The notes under the pieces: generated by a model | Seen by the model: the letters and a program-made list of their open reading frames with translations, nothing else | Database searches by the model: none | What the model was told of the DNA's origin: nothing | Position numbers and translations under genes: made by a program | In this document: in pieces, positions 599 through 20,098 of the stretch | Numbering within the stretch: position 1 is the first letter of the stretch | How the letters are laid out: every line of letters begins with the position of its first letter | NCBI RefSeq assembly: GCF_024305245.1 | Contig: NZ_JAMWYX010000003.1 | Span: 62,001-126,000 of the forward strand | DNA: 64,000 nt | Direction: 5' to 3' | Source of the DNA: Erythrobacter sp. | Lineage (GTDB): Bacteria > Pseudomonadota > Alphaproteobacteria > Sphingomonadales > Sphingomonadaceae

Positions 599-612
599 TG
601 GTAGCGCTACCA
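599..612. promoter_or_regulatory. Perfect 14-bp LacI-type operator TGGTAGCGCTACCA
   Basis: A perfect palindrome with the central CG typical of LacI/GalR-family operators. It lies in the divergent gap between the GH3 gene (minus) and the GH67 gene (plus). A TTGACT -35-like hexamer (580-585) precedes it on the plus strand, which puts the operator over the -10 region. Near-identical sites occur at 12351, 16280 and 19930, also upstream of xylan genes, and a LacI-family gene is encoded nearby (2776-3900). Binding by that regulator is inferred. Confidence 0.75.
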
Positions 613-2775: not shown

Positions 2776-3900
2776 ATGGCCGTAACCATGAACAGCAAGC
2801 CAGAAGTCGCCGCCACGGCCCGCAAACGCAGCGCGCGGCGCAGCAATGCCGCGCCCACCATCACCGATGTCGCGCGCGAGGCGCAATGTTCGCCGATGAC
2901 CGTCAGCCGCGTCATCAATGGCGAGGAAAACGTGCGTGAGGACACCAAACAAAAGGTGCTCGGCGCAATTGCCAAGCTCAACTATGTGCCCAACCGAGCG
3001 GCGCGGTCGCTCGCAGCCGGATCGCAGTTGCGGATCGCGCTGCTGTTCGACAACCCCTCCGCATCATACCTCAGCGAATTTCTGATGGGCGCGCTGGAGG
3101 AAGCGAGCCGACGCGACATCTACCTGGTGGTGCAAAGCTGCGAGACGGTGAACGAGGCTTATGGCGTGATCCGCAAAATGCTCGATGGCGGGATCGAAGG
3201 CTTCATCCTGCCGCCACCCTTGTGCGACGATCAAAGTGTGCTCGACCTGATCCGCAGTAATGGCGGAATTGCGGTCGCGGTGGGACCGGGGCGCGCGACC
3301 GGCAGCCACGGCGCAGTGTTGATCGACGAATTCCAGGCCGCTTATGACATGACCCGCCACATCATCGGGCTGGGGCATGAACGGATCGCCTTCATCATCG
3401 GCAACCCCGATCAGGTCGCCAGCGGACGGCGTTTGCTCGGCTATCGTTCGGCGATGAAGGATGCCGGGCTGGCGATTGACGAGAGCCTGATCGCGCAGGG
3501 CCAGTTCACCTATCGTTCGGGCATGGTCGCGGCGGAAAAGCTGCTGGGCGTACCGCATCGCCCGACCGCCATTTTCGCTTCCAACGACGATATGGCTGCT
3601 GCCACTGTCGCAATGGCGCACCGGCGGCATCTGGATGTGCCGAACGACATTACCGTCTGCGGGTTCGACGATACCGAGCTGGCGAGTTCAATCTGGCCGG
3701 AGCTGACAACAATCCGCCAGCCGATCCGCGAGATGACCGCCGAAGCGGTCGCGATGATTGCGCGGGTGTACAAGCAAAAGCCGCGCATCGCCCGCGCCAA
3801 GGCCGAGCAGTTAACGCTCGCCTATCAACTGATCCGCCGCAATTCCGATGCCGGGCCCAGCCTTGCCGCCTCGTTCAACCCGCCGCCCGAGAAAACATGA
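2776..3900 (+). CDS. LacI-family transcriptional regulator, likely xylan/xylose locus repressor
   Basis: 374 residues. After a basic N-terminal tail comes a LacI helix-turn-helix (TITDVAREAQCSPMTVSRVI, then NRAARSLA as hinge helix) and a periplasmic-binding-protein-like effector domain ending in QPIREMTAEAVAMI, as in GalR/LacI proteins. It is the only regulator within the sugar locus and overlaps the xylD start by 4 nt (ATGA), so it is translated with xylD and the following GH43. It is the natural candidate to bind the TGGTAGCGCTACCA sites. The inducer (xylose, xylonate or an oligosaccharide) cannot be read from the sequence. The start may instead be the ATG at 2788. Confidence 0.9.
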   Translation: MAVTMNSKPEVAATARKRSARRSNAAPTITDVAREAQCSPMTVSRVINGEENVREDTKQKVLGAIAKLNYVPNRAARSLAAGSQLRIALLFDNPSASYLSEFLMGALEEASRRDIYLVVQSCETVNEAYGVIRKMLDGGIEGFILPPPLCDDQSVLDLIRSNGGIAVAVGPGRATGSHGAVLIDEFQAAYDMTRHIIGLGHERIAFIIGNPDQVASGRRLLGYRSAMKDAGLAIDESLIAQGQFTYRSGMVAAEKLLGVPHRPTAIFASNDDMAAATVAMAHRRHLDVPNDITVCGFDDTELASSIWPELTTIRQPIREMTAEAVAMIARVYKQKPRIARAKAEQLTLAYQLIRRNSDAGPSLAASFNPPPEKT

Positions 3901-12350: not shown

Positions 12351-12364
12351 TGATAGCGCTACCA
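12351..12364. promoter_or_regulatory. LacI-type operator TGATAGCGCTACCA
   Basis: Matches the 599-612 palindrome at 13 of 14 positions. It lies between xylX (minus) and the GH43 gene (plus). On the minus strand TTGTCG, a 17-nt spacer and TATGGT form a plausible promoter whose -10 overlaps the operator. This would place the xylXBC operon, and perhaps the divergent GH43 gene, under the locus repressor. Confidence 0.7.
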
Positions 12365-12421: not shown

Positions 12422-14065
12422 ATGACTGGCAAGATGGCGATGCTGTTCAGTGCGCTGGCACTGGCGGCGCATCCTGCAACGGCGCGAGATGTGGTCGCGA
12501 CATTCGATTACCTGGCCTACGAATCGCGAGAGATCGAGATGCCAGCGCCAGAAGGTGCATTCCGCAACCCGGTCCTACCTGGCTTTCACCCGGATCCATC
12601 GATCGTACGGGTGGGCGATGATTTCTATGCTGTCACATCGACCTTCAGCTGGTTTCCCGGTCTGCCGATCCTGCACAGCACCGATCTGGTCAACTGGCGG
12701 CTGATCGGCAATGCGATCGACCGTCCGACCCAGCTCGATTTCAGCGGGCTGGGCACCAATCGCGGGCTGTTTGCGCCCGCTATCGAACATCACGACGGGC
12801 GGTTCTGGATCGTCAACACCTGCATCGAATGCGGCGGCAACTTCGTCATCACCGCCAGCGATCCGGCCGGGCCGTGGAGCGATCCGGCGTGGCTGGATTT
12901 CAGCGGGATTGATCCATCGCTGTTCTTCGATGCCGATGGCACCGCGTGGATCGTCTACAACGACGCGCCTCCGGGCGAGCCGCGTTACGAAGGGCACCGC
13001 GCCCTGTGGTTGCAGCAGTTCGATGCGCACACCGTGCAGGTCATGCCCGGCCGCACACTGCTGGTGGATGGCGGAGTCGATCCGTCCACCAACCCGATCT
13101 GGGCGGAAGGCCCGCATATCTACAAGGTGGGGGAGTGGTATTATCTGCTGACAGCAGAAGGCGGGACGGCTGACCAGCATTCGCAGACGATCTATCGTTC
13201 GCGCGCGCTGAAGGGGCCTTATACCCCCGGACCGTTCAACCCGATCCTGACCCAGCGCGATTTGCCCGCAGACCGGCCCGACCGGGTCGAAGCAACCGGC
13301 CATGCCGATATCGTCAAGCTCGACGATGACACATGGTGGGGCGTGTTTCTCGCCACGCGGCCCTTTGCCGGGCAATCGACGCTGATGGGGCGCGAGACTT
13401 TTCTGCTGCCGCTTGAATGGAAAGACGGCTGGCCGCGCTTCCTTGATCGGGGTGAAGCCGTGCCGATGGTGGCGGAAAGGCCAAATCTGCCCGCTGCAAC
13501 CGGATCGGAATGGCAGAATTGGCGCGACGAGTTCGACGGCGCGCTATCGGATGAATGGATCGGCCTGCGCACACCGGGGCAGGAAGCATTGATTGCGGTC
13601 GATGCGGGCGAGCTGCGCGTTGTCGCCGGGCCAGCAGCGGCGGGCAGCCTCGGCAAGCCCGCCTTTATCGGTCGCCGCCTGCGTCATCACAAGGCCGAGT
13701 TCACCACCCGCCTCACCTTCGCTCCGCAGCGCGGCGGCGATTTTGCCGGGCTGCTCGCCTTCATGGACGAACATCACTTCCTCGCCGCAGGCAAGGAACG
13801 CGGGCGGCTGGTTGTGCGGCTGCGCACGTCGGCGGAGCAAGGAACAAGCGGCGTGGTTGTGACCGATCAACCGCTGACCGCCGAAGGACCAGTCGAACTC
13901 AAGCTCGCGCTCGACGGCGGCAGTGCCCGCATATTCTGGCGGAGTGCGGACGCGGACGAATGGCAGCAGGTGGGCGAGACGATCAATGTCGAACCGCTCG
14001 CCTCGGTTCATGCCGGGCTGTTCACAGGGCTGGTCGTCGGCCCCTACGCCTACTCGCCGGGCTAG
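12422..14065 (+). CDS. Exported GH43 beta-xylosidase/alpha-arabinofuranosidase with C-terminal beta-sandwich
   Basis: 547 residues: signal peptide (ending HPATA), then a GH43 propeller with the triad in GFHPDPSIVRVGDDFYAVTS (base Asp), SGIDPSLFF (Asp) and IWAEGPHIYK (acid Glu). A C-terminal domain from about residue 360 (WRDEFDGALSDEWIGLRTPG onward) resembles the beta-sandwich that follows GH43 xylosidases and completes the active site. GGAGATAACGGG precedes the ATG as ribosome-binding site. It is a single gene, divergent from xylX and convergent with the duplicated-domain protein, sharing CTAG at the stops. Confidence 0.9.
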   Translation: MTGKMAMLFSALALAAHPATARDVVATFDYLAYESREIEMPAPEGAFRNPVLPGFHPDPSIVRVGDDFYAVTSTFSWFPGLPILHSTDLVNWRLIGNAIDRPTQLDFSGLGTNRGLFAPAIEHHDGRFWIVNTCIECGGNFVITASDPAGPWSDPAWLDFSGIDPSLFFDADGTAWIVYNDAPPGEPRYEGHRALWLQQFDAHTVQVMPGRTLLVDGGVDPSTNPIWAEGPHIYKVGEWYYLLTAEGGTADQHSQTIYRSRALKGPYTPGPFNPILTQRDLPADRPDRVEATGHADIVKLDDDTWWGVFLATRPFAGQSTLMGRETFLLPLEWKDGWPRFLDRGEAVPMVAERPNLPAATGSEWQNWRDEFDGALSDEWIGLRTPGQEALIAVDAGELRVVAGPAAAGSLGKPAFIGRRLRHHKAEFTTRLTFAPQRGGDFAGLLAFMDEHHFLAAGKERGRLVVRLRTSAEQGTSGVVVTDQPLTAEGPVELKLALDGGSARIFWRSADADEWQQVGETINVEPLASVHAGLFTGLVVGPYAYSPG

Positions 14066-15192
14066 TTGGTCTTGAAGATGTAGACCGGACCGATCTCGAC
14101 GTTTTGTTTGGCACCGGCAAAGTGCAGCGCCGCCACGGCGTCGCCCGGTCCGAAGCCGCGGGTTGCGGTGAAGGGCAGTTTGACCATCTGCCACCGGTCG
14201 CCGACTTTGAACACCTTGTCACCGAACCCTTCGAACGGAGGGAAGGCGCCCTGGATGCGAGCGTAAATCAGGCCCTTTGCATCCTCGGTTTCGGCACTGA
14301 TTGTTCGCGCCACGATCGCGACCATCATCTGGTCGCCTTCCTTGACGGCGGTAGTGATCGGGATCGCGGTGCTCAGGTCCCAGCGGTTTTCGCCCACTCG
14401 TGAAGTGGTGAAGCTGGTCGCCTTCTGAAGCCAGATTTCGGGGACGTCGAGTTCCTGCCAAGTCCCGGCCGTGCCGCCATGACCCCAACCGCGTCGGGTG
14501 GGATCGTTGATCAGTTGCCCTGCGCTGCGCAAGCCATCGGGCATTTCGATGGTGGACGGATCCTTGAGAGTGGGTTGCGGGTCTGTAGCTGCCACTTCAG
14601 TGGTAGCCACGATCGTCGCGGAGCCCTTGACGACGATCGCCTGGCCAATCTCGACCTGCTGCCTGGCACCGGCCAGTTGCAGCGCCACGATGGCATCGGC
14701 GCGGCGTATGCGTTTGTCGGCGAGTGTGCTGACTTCGTACCAGTCCCACTCCGAACCGATCAGGACATTGGTGTCGCCGAACCCGCCATAGGGTGCAGCG
14801 TTTTCCTGAATGCGGACGCCGATGACGCCCTTGCCGTCGCTGCGTTCGCTGCTAACGCTCCGGGCGTAGAAGCCTACCGTCACCCGGTCGCCGCTGTCGA
14901 TTTGCGCAATCAGTGGCACGTTGGCGGCCACGTCATAAATATTGGCGCCCTTGGCTTTGATATCGAACACGCGCGCCGCGCCGCCGCCGGGAATTTCCTC
15001 TGCCGCGCGTCCGCTGGTTTCGTAGTTGGTGCCATAGCTTTCCCAGTCGATCCGAGTCGGATCATTGATCAGGTCGCCGGGCACCTGTTCGTCGAATGCG
15101 GCCAGTTCGGGCGGCAATTGTGCCGTCACCGGGGTTGCGATGCACAGCAGAGCAGCGCCCGTAGCAAGCGCGATGCGATAGTGGTTCATCAT
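14062..15192 (-). CDS. Exported protein with two tandem homologous beta-rich domains, possible carbohydrate-binding protein
   Basis: 376 residues from the ATG at 15192 (AAGGTGA just upstream); the ORF-track start is about 52 codons too long. After a signal peptide (ending IATPVTA), two repeats of about 150-170 residues are visible. Each begins G(D/Q)LINDPTR, continues with a Gly-rich segment, an IP(L/I).. turn, V(G/A)..AR(S/T)(V/I)S.E..D.KG(V/L)I, P(Y/F).GFGD, a GD/RRADA(I/V)(V/A)AL block and ends LAGARQQVEIG / FAGAKQNVEIG. No catalytic motif was recognised. The gene lies 25 nt downstream of the GH5 gene and is probably co-transcribed with it. A glycan-binding role is inferred from context and from the jelly-roll-like sequence. 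Confidence 0.75.
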   Translation of the reverse strand: MMNHYRIALATGAALLCIATPVTAQLPPELAAFDEQVPGDLINDPTRIDWESYGTNYETSGRAAEEIPGGGAARVFDIKAKGANIYDVAANVPLIAQIDSGDRVTVGFYARSVSSERSDGKGVIGVRIQENAAPYGGFGDTNVLIGSEWDWYEVSTLADKRIRRADAIVALQLAGARQQVEIGQAIVVKGSATIVATTEVAATDPQPTLKDPSTIEMPDGLRSAGQLINDPTRRGWGHGGTAGTWQELDVPEIWLQKATSFTTSRVGENRWDLSTAIPITTAVKEGDQMMVAIVARTISAETEDAKGLIYARIQGAFPPFEGFGDKVFKVGDRWQMVKLPFTATRGFGPGDAVAALHFAGAKQNVEIGPVYIFKTN

Positions 15193-15217: not shown

Positions 15218-16243
15218 TCAGTTCGATTCCTTGAGCCCCAATGCGCCGAGCATCCCCGGCATCCATTCGCGTTTCTCGCTGTCGTAGAACGGGAAGGTGT
15301 TCGTGTAGGCCCATACGCACACGCCAATGCCGGTGGGCGCAAAGGCATCGGTGATTGTGCGGTGATACTTCACTCTATCGTTGAGCGAGATGTGTCGATC
15401 GAAAGCGCCGACCTCGCCCATGAACGGGGTCTTGCCCGTGCGGTTTATATAGGATTGCACCGCCAGCACATCATTGGCGAGTTGGGCCGCATCGGCATGG
15501 GTGGGGAAACTGCGACCCACTGGCGGAATATCGGGCGCGGTCCACTCCGCTCCCTGATGGGTATAGGCAAACGGGTCGTAATAGTGAAAGGTGGGGTGCA
15601 CATTGGGGTCATCAGGCAGCGGCAGCGTCTCAAGCGACTTGATGCCGCTCCAGTTTTCACCGCCTATGATGACCGCGCGGGTCGGATGCACCGCGCGCAC
15701 TTCCTTCATCGCCGGCGCCAGCGTCGCAAGCAGGTTGGTGTGGTTGAAGTTCTTGTGCGGTTCGTTTTCCAGTTCGAACCATAGCGTGTCTTCGGGGTAG
15801 CCGGCAAAGCGCGCTGCGATCTGTTTCCATACCCCGCCATGCCATGCGGCAACAGCCAGCGGATCATCATGGATCGGATCGAAATGGTGGCTGTTGAGGA
15901 TGACGTTGAGGTCTTCCGCCAGCGCCCAGTCGACGATCTGTTGCACCCGGTCCATCCACTTGGGATCGACCGTATAGGGCGGCTTGTCGCTGGACTTGTT
16001 GTGCCAGCGCACGGGGATGCGGACCGTATCGAAGCCCGCTGCCTTGATGCGTTCGAAATCCGCCTTGCGCGCCGGAGCGCCGCCCCATGCGCCTTCGGTC
16101 TGCGGTTCCAGCGTATTGCCCATGTTGATGCAGGTGCCGACCGGCAGCGCTTTGGCGGTTGGGGCCGGAGCCTGCGCCTGTAAGGGTGCGAGGCCTGACG
16201 CTGCTACCGCCAGCGCCGATGCCAAAGCCATGGCTTTCATCAT
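15218..16243 (-). CDS. GH5 endo-beta-1,4-glucanase (cellulase family)
   Basis: About 341 residues from the tandem ATGs at 16243/16240, preceded by GGGGAGAGA; the ORF-track start is too early. There is a signal peptide (MKAMALASALAVAASGLAPLQA). GH5 features are INMGNTLE, GFDTVRIPVRW, ILNSHHFD, the acid/base Glu in LWFELENEPH and the nucleophile Glu in PFMGEVGAF. The likely substrate is a beta-1,4-glucan, mixed-linkage glucan or mannan. It carries its own operator-like site at 16280 and is followed by the duplicated-domain protein. Confidence 0.88.
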   Translation of the reverse strand: MMKAMALASALAVAASGLAPLQAQAPAPTAKALPVGTCINMGNTLEPQTEGAWGGAPARKADFERIKAAGFDTVRIPVRWHNKSSDKPPYTVDPKWMDRVQQIVDWALAEDLNVILNSHHFDPIHDDPLAVAAWHGGVWKQIAARFAGYPEDTLWFELENEPHKNFNHTNLLATLAPAMKEVRAVHPTRAVIIGGENWSGIKSLETLPLPDDPNVHPTFHYYDPFAYTHQGAEWTAPDIPPVGRSFPTHADAAQLANDVLAVQSYINRTGKTPFMGEVGAFDRHISLNDRVKYHRTITDAFAPTGIGVCVWAYTNTFPFYDSEKREWMPGMLGALGLKESN

Positions 16244-16279: not shown

Positions 16280-16293
16280 TGGTAACGCTACCA
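16280..16293. promoter_or_regulatory. LacI-type operator TGGTAACGCTACCA
   Basis: Matches the locus palindrome at 13 of 14 positions. It lies upstream of the GH5 gene on the minus strand. Reading that strand, TTGGGA, a 16-nt spacer and TATTTG form a weak promoter with the operator touching the -10. This suggests that GH5 and the duplicated-domain gene are controlled with the xylose genes. Confidence 0.68.
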
Positions 16294-16333: not shown

Positions 16334-17338
16334 TCAGGGGCTGCCCAGCACCTGCAGGATGAAGCGGCGGATCTGTTCGTCGCGCTGCGGCGATGCTGGC
16401 CCGTTCACCCCCTGTGCGTGCGGCGGCAGGTGCGCGGCGGCATCGCCCGCCTGCTCATCGAACACGAAATGATCGAACCATGTGCGCCACGCCGCGCGCT
16501 GCGCTGCTGGTTGTTCGCGGATCGCCAGCATAGCGTGCACCAGCGCCAGAAACCCGCCGCCGCGCGAGGCATCATTGTGCCAGTAATTCACCAGCACATT
16601 GATGGGCGCGCTGGCTGCGACATGGTGCCACCACAGAGTTGGAATGTAGATCGCATCGCCCGGTTCAAGCTCGGCAAACTGCGCCAGTCCTTCTGCCTTC
16701 GCATAGCGCGGATAGCGTGCATGATCGGGCGCAAGCGGATCGACCATGCTCACCGGCTGCCCGGCAAGCGTGATGTTGAGCGGGCCAACATAGAGCTCGG
16801 GCGTCGCTGCGGGCGGAAACAGCGTGAACCGGCGGCGTCCGGCGGCGACGACCGCGATATTGTCAGACAGATCGAAATGGGTGGCGACCTGCGTCGCGTT
16901 GCCCAGCCATATGCGCGCGGTCGCTTCCATCGCGGCAACCAGCGGCAGCGGGTTCGCTGCGCCAAGAGCGGGCAGGTGGCGGGCGATCTCGGCGGCTCCG
17001 GCATAGATGCCGATGGGGTGCGGTGTGTCTGCGATATCGCGGAGATGCCGCGCCAGCGCGGCCAGCGTCATCTGTTCCCGCCGAAAATTGAACCCGCGCA
17101 TATCGGGCGTGTAAAAAAATCGCCCCGCTTCCGATGGCGGGGCAACCATCACATCGGCTGGCAGCCCGGTATCGGCCTGCAAGACCAGATCCAGCGCGGC
17201 GTTCGCATCGGTCTCGCCCGCCGCCACCAGCGGCCAATCCGCAGCCAATCCGCGCATCACGACCGGACGAAACGCGGCCCTGACATCGCGCTCGAAACTC
17301 GCGGCATCGGGGATCGCAATTTCGTCGACGGGCGTCAT
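16334..17338 (-). CDS. Cupin-like JmjC-type (cupin_8) protein
   Basis: 334 residues of the Fe(II)/2-oxoglutarate-dependent cupin_8 family. The N-terminal motif PVVMRGLAADWPLV is followed by the metal-binding pair HFD in ATHFDLSDNIAVV and a distal histidine in IPTLWWHHV; RRRFTLFPP is also typical. Such proteins are common in sphingomonad sugar loci beside TonB-dependent receptors and tryptophan-halogenase-like genes, neither of which is visible here. The hydroxylation target is unknown. It follows the GH3 gene by 9 nt and is probably in its transcript. Confidence 0.82.
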   Translation of the reverse strand: MTPVDEIAIPDAASFERDVRAAFRPVVMRGLAADWPLVAAGETDANAALDLVLQADTGLPADVMVAPPSEAGRFFYTPDMRGFNFRREQMTLAALARHLRDIADTPHPIGIYAGAAEIARHLPALGAANPLPLVAAMEATARIWLGNATQVATHFDLSDNIAVVAAGRRRFTLFPPAATPELYVGPLNITLAGQPVSMVDPLAPDHARYPRYAKAEGLAQFAELEPGDAIYIPTLWWHHVAASAPINVLVNYWHNDASRGGGFLALVHAMLAIREQPAAQRAAWRTWFDHFVFDEQAGDAAAHLPPHAQGVNGPASPQRDEQIRRFILQVLGSP

Positions 17339-17347
17339 GGCGTCAGA

Positions 17348-19882
17348 TCAGGTGCATGGCACAACGCGCTCGGCATCGCTGCCGAGCCGCACTTCGGCAA
17401 TGGCGTAATCCGCCGCGCCTTCGGTTTCGAGCACGAAGGGCCGGTTGAGATTGGTCACGTCGGCTCCCTTGTTGCGCAGGCATTTGAGCGGAATGCCATA
17501 GCGGACATAGTCGCTTCCGGCGGCGAGATCGAGCGCGGCATAGCCGCTGCCATTGGGCCCGATCGCGCCGATCCGCGCGCGCTGCGGTGCGGCCCAGCTG
17601 CGCAGTGTGACCAGCAGCATCACATCGGCATTGGTTTCGCGGTCGATATCGACACCTTCGAAATTGCCGAGCTGCACGCTTGCCGTGCCGCCTGCGATGG
17701 TGAAGCGGCGTGCGCCTTCCTGCACCTTGAAGTTTTCCGCCGTCACCCGCACGCGTCCGCCCAGCGCGTCTGCCGGAACAGTGGTGATGCGCGTTCCGGC
17801 ATCGCTGCCCGTGCCTTCGATCATCAGCGACCAGCGCGCGGCGGGGGCGCCAGCGTTGAACCACAGGCGACTGTCGCCCGCGAGGTTGCCGGTGTCGAGT
17901 TCGGGCAGCGCAGTCCAGCCGGTGGCGGGCGCGGTGTAATCCAGCCCGTAACCGAACGGAAACAGCGTCCCTTCGCTCAGCAGCGTGGTGCGCGGCCAGG
18001 CGGCCGGCAGCTTTCCGGCAAAATCGAACCGCGGCTTGCCGGCAGCATCGCCCACCAGCACGTCTGCAACGCCGCCGCCTTCGCTGCCCGGCAGCCATGC
18101 GACCACAAAGGCATCGGCGGCATTGAGCGCGGGGTTCACATACAGCGGCCGCCCGGTGATCATCACCGCGACCACTGGGATTCCCTGCGCATGCAGCTTG
18201 CGCATGGTTTCGTAAGGCGCGGTCAATTCGGGATCGAGCACCAGCGCTTCGCGGTCACCCTGAAACTCGGCATAGGGCGTCTCGCCGAACACCACCACGG
18301 CGGCATCGGGACGGTCGGTGAAGCTGCCATCGGGCGAGATCACGGCGCTGCCTCCGCCCGCTTCGACCGCCTGTTTCAACCCGGTTCCGATCGAAGTTGC
18401 GCCGGGGAAGTGGCTGTTGTCGATCCCGGTGCCCTGCCAGCTCAGCGTCCATCCGCCCGATTGCCGTGCAATATCGTCCGCGCCGTCACCCGCGATCAGC
18501 AGGCGCTGGCCCGGTGCCAGCGGCAGAACGCCTTCGTTCTTGAGTAGCACCAGCGATTTGCGCACTGCCTCACGCGCAACAGTGCGGTGTTCAGGCGCGC
18601 CGAGCAGGTCATACCGGCCGGAGTATGGGCGCTCTGACGGTTTGGGTGCAGTGAACAGGCCGAGCCGCGCCTTGACCCGAAGAATCCGCGCCACGGCCTC
18701 ATCGATCCGCGCCATCGGGATCGTACCCGCCTGCGCACGCGCCAGCAGATCGGCGTAGATCGGCTTCCACGTATCGGGCGCCATATACATGTCGACGCCG
18801 GCCATCAGTGCCTGTGGGCAGACTTCATTGGTGCAGCCCGCGACCTGGCCGTGAGCGTTCCAGTCCGACACCACAAATCCGCCGAAATCCATGCGATCTT
18901 TAAGCACGCCGGTGACGAGCGAGTGATTGCCAGTCATCTTGACGCCCTGCCAGCTGGAGAAGCTGACCATCACGGTTGAGACGCCCTCGGCAATCGCCGG
19001 TCCGTAGGGGAGTCCGTGAATATCGCGCAGGTCTTCTTCCGAGATCGAACTGTCGCCTTGATCGACCCCGTTGTCGGTACCGCCGTCGGCGAGAAAGTGC
19101 TTTGTCGAAGCCAGCACCCACGGGCCAGCCAGCAGATTATCGTTGCTTGGTGAGCCTTGCAAACCGCGTACCATCGCGCCGACATAGGATGCGACGAGTT
19201 CGGGGTCGGACGAATAGCCTTCGTAGGCGCGACCCCAGCGGAAGTCCTGCGGCACGGCCACAGTCGGCGCGAAGGTCCACTCCTGACCTGTAACCCGGAT
19301 TTCCTTGGCAGTGATGGCACCAATCCGCTCGATCAGCTCTGCATCGCGCATCGCGCCGAGGCCGATATTGTGAGGAAAGATCGTGGCGCCGATGATGTTC
19401 GAATGTCCGTGCACGGCGTCGATCCCCCAGATCATCGGTATGCCGACACCGCCATCCGATCGATCCACTGAGGCAAGGTAGAACTCGTCAGCCGTCTCCA
19501 ACCATTCAGGGGCAGGGGCCAGATCGTTCCCCTCCGGCCCACTATTTCCACCAACAAGGATCGAGCCGAGTTTGTATTTTCTGAGATCATCCGGAGTGAC
19601 GCAGCATAGATCGGCTTGTACCAACTGCCCGATCTTTTCCTCGATCGTCATGCGTCCAATCAGGTCCGCAATCATCTGCTCGTGATCCAAACTGATCGGC
19701 ACAGGATAGTCGTAGGCCGGCCAATGCTCAGGGCGGGCCACACCCCTCTCGGTCGGTGCGATTGTTTCAGCGGAAGCTGGCGTCGTTGGTTCATGGATAG
19801 CGCTAGCCGCCATTGGCGACGCGGTCGCGACTGCCAGTATCCCGGCTGCGAAATACGCAGTTTCCCGACCAAAACGAATCAT
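17348..19882 (-). CDS. GH3 exo-beta-1,4-glucosidase/xylosidase, large exported form
   Basis: 844 residues: N-terminal signal segment, GH3 TIM-barrel (MTIEEKIGQLVQAD, IPMIWGIDAVHGHSN, nucleophile Asp in GFVVSDWNAHGQV), the alpha/beta sandwich domain (ARILRVKARLGLF, SLVLLKNEGVLPLAPG), and an extra C-terminal beta-sandwich from about residue 665 as in ExoP-like glucan exo-glucosidases. It releases terminal sugars from beta-glucan or xylan oligosaccharides. It is the promoter-proximal gene of GH3-cupin_8, behind an operator-like site at 19930. Confidence 0.9.
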   Translation of the reverse strand: MIRFGRETAYFAAGILAVATASPMAASAIHEPTTPASAETIAPTERGVARPEHWPAYDYPVPISLDHEQMIADLIGRMTIEEKIGQLVQADLCCVTPDDLRKYKLGSILVGGNSGPEGNDLAPAPEWLETADEFYLASVDRSDGGVGIPMIWGIDAVHGHSNIIGATIFPHNIGLGAMRDAELIERIGAITAKEIRVTGQEWTFAPTVAVPQDFRWGRAYEGYSSDPELVASYVGAMVRGLQGSPSNDNLLAGPWVLASTKHFLADGGTDNGVDQGDSSISEEDLRDIHGLPYGPAIAEGVSTVMVSFSSWQGVKMTGNHSLVTGVLKDRMDFGGFVVSDWNAHGQVAGCTNEVCPQALMAGVDMYMAPDTWKPIYADLLARAQAGTIPMARIDEAVARILRVKARLGLFTAPKPSERPYSGRYDLLGAPEHRTVAREAVRKSLVLLKNEGVLPLAPGQRLLIAGDGADDIARQSGGWTLSWQGTGIDNSHFPGATSIGTGLKQAVEAGGGSAVISPDGSFTDRPDAAVVVFGETPYAEFQGDREALVLDPELTAPYETMRKLHAQGIPVVAVMITGRPLYVNPALNAADAFVVAWLPGSEGGGVADVLVGDAAGKPRFDFAGKLPAAWPRTTLLSEGTLFPFGYGLDYTAPATGWTALPELDTGNLAGDSRLWFNAGAPAARWSLMIEGTGSDAGTRITTVPADALGGRVRVTAENFKVQEGARRFTIAGGTASVQLGNFEGVDIDRETNADVMLLVTLRSWAAPQRARIGAIGPNGSGYAALDLAAGSDYVRYGIPLKCLRNKGADVTNLNRPFVLETEGAADYAIAEVRLGSDAERVVPCT

Positions 19883-20084: not shown

Positions 20085-20098
20085 TGGTAGCGATATCA
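20085..20098. promoter_or_regulatory. Additional operator-like sequence TGGTAGCGATATCA
   Basis: Matches the locus palindrome at 12 of 14 positions but lies 203 nt from the GH3 start codon with no obvious own promoter. It could be an auxiliary operator for looping with the 19930 site, or a chance or relic site. Confidence 0.35.

Follow-up and report, generated by a model that had tools for sequence, protein, structure and literature searches.

The open reading frame at positions 14062-15192 on the minus strand of the window (the whole 64,000-nucleotide stretch of Erythrobacter sp. DNA analyzed here) encodes a protein of 376 amino acids that, judged from its own sequence and those of its relatives, is probably an exported, soluble, and non-catalytic pair of CBM4-type modules serving as the detached partner of the GH5 enzyme encoded 25 bp upstream. 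The mechanism is an ordinary one, whereas the family is unannotated and the architecture, a stand-alone tandem CBM4-like accessory to a GH5 enzyme, is a novel variation on a known one; no published description of this module family was found in the open-access literature.

The module gene has its ATG at 15192 and its stop codon at 14064-14062, and it shares the bases CTAG (14062-14065) with the convergent GH43 gene so that the two stop codons overlap. The N terminus of the protein, MMNHYRIALATGAALLCIATPVTA followed by QLPPEL, reads as a Sec-type signal peptide (residues 1-24, positions 15121-15192, minus strand) with a predicted cut between TPVTA and Q. A scan of this N terminus shows no lipobox cysteine, and the N termini of the relatives contain no convincing lipobox, the few flagged instances lying ahead of the start codon or within the hydrophobic core. 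The signal peptide alone, which has no lipobox, favors a soluble protein, periplasmic or secreted, over one anchored at the surface. The remainder of the chain is composed of domain 1 (residues 24-198, positions 14599-15123) and domain 2 (residues 224-374, positions 14071-14523), both on the minus strand and delimited with hmmsearch. The two domains align with 36% identity over 151 residues (BLASTP E = 2e-28), a homology far beyond chance that bears out the description of an exported protein with two tandem homologous domains in an earlier note on this DNA, and the repeat motifs quoted in that note are located within the alignment. The module gene follows the GH5 gene, as also noted earlier, and is on the same strand, its start codon lying just past the GH5 stop (15218).

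Taken alone, the module protein gives no meaningful sequence match in Pfam, NCBIfam, or the PDB and lies under every family cut-off of the first two, which is why the earlier note saw no known CBM family in it. That claim does not survive the use of profiles built from the relatives. The profile of the domain 1 relatives has four matches among all PDB sequences, all of them CBM4 modules (1gui with E = 6e-6, 3jxs, 1k42, and 3p6b at 1.2), and a broader profile of both domains has eleven, of which ten are CBM4 modules with a best E of 2.2e-5. The Pfam family CBM_4_9 (PF02018) is matched by 18 of 31 domain 1 members with a best E of 1.3e-5, and ten relatives scored against it reach 14.0-25.0 bits or give no match, the curated cut-off being 25.9 bits. 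Because the relatives' profiles match CBM4, the domains are by sequence classed as distant, divergent CBM4-type modules falling just under the Pfam cut-off. CBM22 chains are absent from the PDB sequence-profile matches up to E = 10 despite their close fold. A separate two-domain profile, A1, returned mostly biotin-carrier proteins from the PDB, which were judged to be chance matches.

The AlphaFold2 model calculated with an alignment of 18 sequences has a mean pLDDT of 86 and shows two β-sandwich domains joined by a low-confidence linker (residues 197-205). Its pTM is 0.51, and the relative placement of the two domains is therefore unreliable; the prediction made without an alignment (pLDDT 40) was of no use. 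A Foldseek search of the PDB with the model gives the CBM22 tandem of Xyn10C (4xup) as the best whole-protein match and SGBP-B of Bacteroides thetaiotaomicron (7kwb) at the second rank, followed by the CBM4 modules of CelK, CbhA, Xyn10A, and Lam16A, with CelK matched at E = 8e-9 and a TM-score to the target of 0.64. Comparison of the model with CBM families had been proposed as a check in the earlier note, and the folds matched include those of tandem CBM22 and CBM4. A known enzyme fold whose active site is intact, which the same note had set against its own reading, was sought among the Foldseek PDB matches and not found, and the matches to non-catalytic β-sandwich modules fit its statement that no catalytic residues are recognizable. 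Cry, Vip3, and other large enzymes or toxins also in the list match, on our reading, only through common β-sandwich domains.

Two positions of the CBM4 binding site have aromatic counterparts in both domains, Tyr-86 and Tyr-135 in domain 1 and Trp-271 and Phe-320 in domain 2, located from the CBM4 alignment and, for domain 1, from the letters of the alignment columns. In the profile alignment Tyr-86 is placed on Trp-69 of the Rhodothermus marinus CBM4-2 and on the tryptophan of the TDTWHI motif in 1gui, and Tyr-135 falls on the tryptophan of HDPW in 1gui, its position against the R. marinus module being uncertain to within a few residues. In the CBM4 pair of the Pm25 xylanase a tyrosine is essential for binding and a tryptophan, equated there with Trp-102 of Lam16, contributes to it (PMC7848910); this tyrosine is equated here with the first groove position by its motif and not by a computed alignment. 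Aromatic residues occupy both groove positions in 51 of 52 copies of domain 1 and in all 23 single-domain members. Domain 2 retains both aromatics in 31 of 35 copies found beside a GH5 gene compared with 3 of 17 away from one (Fisher p = 8.6e-7, a statistic that ignores shared descent).

The GH5 partner (15218-16243, minus strand; Pfam Cellulase, E = 6e-45) is closest to the GH5_25 type, with CelH of Clostridium thermocellum, FnCel5A, and Cel5A of Thermotoga maritima (TmCel5A) as its closest PDB matches. GH5_25 enzymes such as TmCel5A are active on β-glucan and β-mannan (PMC3526467). Of the 75 loci examined, 16 have the module joined in frame to the GH5 C terminus and 26 have it immediately downstream of the GH5 gene, and for 31 relatives no GH5 was found nearby. 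Erythrobacter donghaensis (L038) has one of the naturally fused enzymes. In each of the 26 adjacent loci a possible module start codon is positioned between -3 and +45 nucleotides from the GH5 stop, which together with the 16 in-frame fusions argues for joint action with the enzyme. On a tree of domain 1 sequences (quick search, SH-aLRT support only) the fused state changes six times, at least four of these changes being forced by supported branches, and the well supported clade of 14 sequences that holds the window protein itself contains five fused and nine split forms. The split forms carry signal peptides of their own, several of them similar in sequence to one another and to that of the window protein, which excludes a sequencing error as the cause of the split.

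The gene run is ordered GH3, Cupin_8, GH5, and module. It begins with a GH3 gene with an ExoP_C domain by Pfam (17348-19882, minus strand), a GH3 being present in 37 of the 42 GH5-linked loci, and continues with the Cupin_8 gene (16334-17338, minus strand; Pfam E = 1e-61), a recurrent neighbor. Downstream lies the convergent GH43 gene of the β-xylosidase type (12422-14065, plus strand; Pfam), which has the same place in many relatives. The surrounding locus contains GH67, two GH43, a SASA-type esterase, an SMP-30 lactonase, an SDR, an FAH-type protein, and an IlvD/Edd dehydratase. It extends upstream of the window with a GH10-like frame, further GH3 genes, a TonB receptor-like frame, and a sugar transporter, the GH10-like and TonB receptor-like frames having been recognized by sequence reading and not by family search. 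Genes for xylose oxidation, GH10, or GH43 are nearby in 40 of 42 GH5-linked loci compared with 4 of 33 others. Tryptophan-halogenase-like and Cupin_8 genes also recur inside glycan loci (L139 7732-11736, L140 1276-2847, and the window at 16334-17338).

An operator-like palindrome, TGGTAACGCTACCA, is located at 16280-16293 just upstream of the GH5 start (around 16243), and as a sequence feature it bears out the claim that the GH5 and module genes lie under one operator. A guessed LacI-type pattern matched the cluster at several sites and was then refined to TGGTANCGNTACCA, fitted to the window's own sites. Without mismatch this pattern occurs at only two places in the 3.5-Mb genome, window positions 599-612 at the GH67 gene and 16280-16293. 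With one mismatch it is found at 12351-12364 between the FAH and GH43 genes, at 20085-20098 upstream of the GH3 gene, on contig C18 (44208-44221) just before a sugar-transporter frame, and at two more sites elsewhere. Because the pattern was fitted to its own sites and the backwards-read control is commoner genome-wide (18 occurrences versus 7), the operator argument rests on clustering, five of the seven sites lying within 38 kb. The sites at GH67, FAH/GH43, GH5, GH3, and the sugar transporter probably define one LacI-type regulon, for which the gene at 2776-3900 is perhaps the regulator.

The GH5_25-type enzyme and the ExoP-type GH3 at first suggested an operon directed to β-glucan, a reading countered by the operator-like sites and by the conserved neighbors, which are genes for xylose oxidation, GH10, GH43, and GH67. 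The predicted ligand of the module pair is most likely xylan or β-1,4-glucan. Xylan would be favored by the locus and operator only, whereas the type of the GH5 points to glucan or mannan.

Of 301 genomes searched within this bacterial family, 34 have relatives, covering 23 of 96 genera, although Pfam detects no CBM_4_9 above its cut-off in any of 101 sampled genomes of that family. A scan of genome contigs gives 60 named loci in Sphingomonadales, with Erythrobacter, Porphyrobacter, Sphingopyxis, Novosphingobium, and Sphingorhabdus among the genera. Otherwise the family is almost missing from the wider samples, the class sample adding a single genus and the phylum sample a single weak match. 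Plasmids contribute two homologues, one with two domains in Niveispirillum and one with a single domain in Sphingomonas parapaucimobilis. Divergent single-domain exported relatives of about 190 amino acids (L118-L123 and L031) occur away from any GH5, and one divergent single-domain relative on a Sphingomonas plasmid adjoins a TIM-barrel hydrolase and a TonB receptor. Locus L077 (10082-11712) has three consecutive module matches, the third of which lies just past the two-domain frame and looks like a separate neighboring copy.

A side clade of fifteen relatives (support 99) has no GH5. Eight of its loci lie beside a hydroxyphenylpyruvate-dioxygenase-like gene, six are tryptophan-halogenase loci, and one is on a short contig, the neighbors being named from reading their sequences. 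Domain 1 keeps its aromatics in this clade, and domain 2 is without at least one of them in nearly all members, which suggests that the pair has been re-used for another glycan or another role. Loci L056, L058, L064, L104, L108, and L109 represent a conserved housekeeping locus containing the hydroxyphenylpyruvate-dioxygenase-like gene. Several of them also have PDH, mechanosensitive-channel-like, and MFS-like genes close by. The domain 2 groove aromatics are gone at this locus, and nothing seen in the surroundings of these six points to glycan use.

In the proposed function each domain would bind a single β-1,4-linked glycan chain in its groove and the tandem arrangement would raise the avidity. 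The protein, acting free or in complex with the GH5 enzyme, may thereby keep hemicellulose fragments near it in the same compartment, most likely the periplasm. An unlikely alternative is that the module acts independently of the GH5 and retains glycan in the periplasm as suggested for YeCBM32, holding oligo- or polysaccharide that enters through the TonB receptor for other hydrolases. The signal peptide without lipobox, the precedent of YeCBM32 as an exported CBM without an enzyme (PMC7843439), and the stand-alone single-domain relatives lacking GH5 all fit such a role, but the start codon is tied to the GH5 stop in 26 of 26 adjacent loci and the module is fused in frame in 16. A surface protein capturing glycan for the TonB receptor is very improbable, since the module is linked to the GH5 and not to the receptor and since a lipobox is absent from the window protein and not convincing in any relative, even though SGBP-B ranks second by fold and the TonB receptor-like frame belongs to the same locus.

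The β-sandwich might also have no plant glycan ligand and instead serve in the envelope or in assembly, or bind glycans of the cell itself. The fold is a common one, Foldseek lists unrelated β-sandwich proteins too, and the clade beside the hydroxyphenylpyruvate-dioxygenase-like gene occupies a housekeeping locus; the CBM4-specific profile matches, the conserved groove aromatics, and the GH5 fusions nevertheless make this improbable. For the preferred reading, the GH5 partnership, a tentative extension is that the enzyme and its modules switch repeatedly between one covalent and two exported polypeptides and so form a non-covalent complex, one lineage having re-used the pair at the housekeeping locus with the site of domain 1 kept and that of domain 2 lost. 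Such a complex, if real, would be unusual for CBMs.

The interpretation put forward in the earlier note thus stands in part. The CBM4 profiles and fold, the groove aromatics, the GH5 fusions, and an operator-like site common to GH67 uphold its view of a duplicated glycan-binding module that stands free within a xylan-type locus; the placement outside the known CBM families gives way to a distant CBM4 relationship, and a surface location is less likely without a lipobox. These bacteria gain a defined candidate glycan-binding accessory from a family passed over by Pfam. In close relatives the same module occurs both fused to and apart from one and the same enzyme, a natural experiment in which the value of the covalent CBM-enzyme linkage is directly measurable.

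Compared with known systems, the module shares the β-sandwich, profile similarity, and two groove aromatics of the CBM4 modules from R. marinus Xyn10A (CBM4-2), T. maritima Lam16A (CBM4-2), and Cellulomonas fimi CenC (CBM4-1), and like CBM4, often tandem in known cases, it is attached C-terminally to an enzyme, the GH5, in some relatives. It differs in being a separate exported protein with no catalytic domain, in scoring below the Pfam cut-off, and in being almost confined to Sphingomonadales. The GH10 xylanase Pm25 (PMC7848910) likewise has two tandem CBM4 modules with aromatics at the essential position, but its pair interrupts the catalytic domain of the GH10 whereas that of the window is a separate polypeptide. 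The CBM22 tandem of Paenibacillus barcinonensis Xyn10C (4xup) has the most similar overall fold with two tandem β-sandwich modules, yet it forms part of an enzyme and has no sequence-profile match to the window module. SGBP-B (7kwb) is also a multi-domain non-catalytic β-sandwich protein encoded in a glycan locus, and differs from the window module, in which no lipobox or surface anchor is seen. The functional analogue is YeCBM32 of Yersinia enterocolitica, an exported CBM with no catalytic domain that binds polygalacturonate and for which periplasmic retention has been suggested (PMC7843439 and PMC5651945), although it belongs to a different CBM family with a single domain and a pectin ligand.
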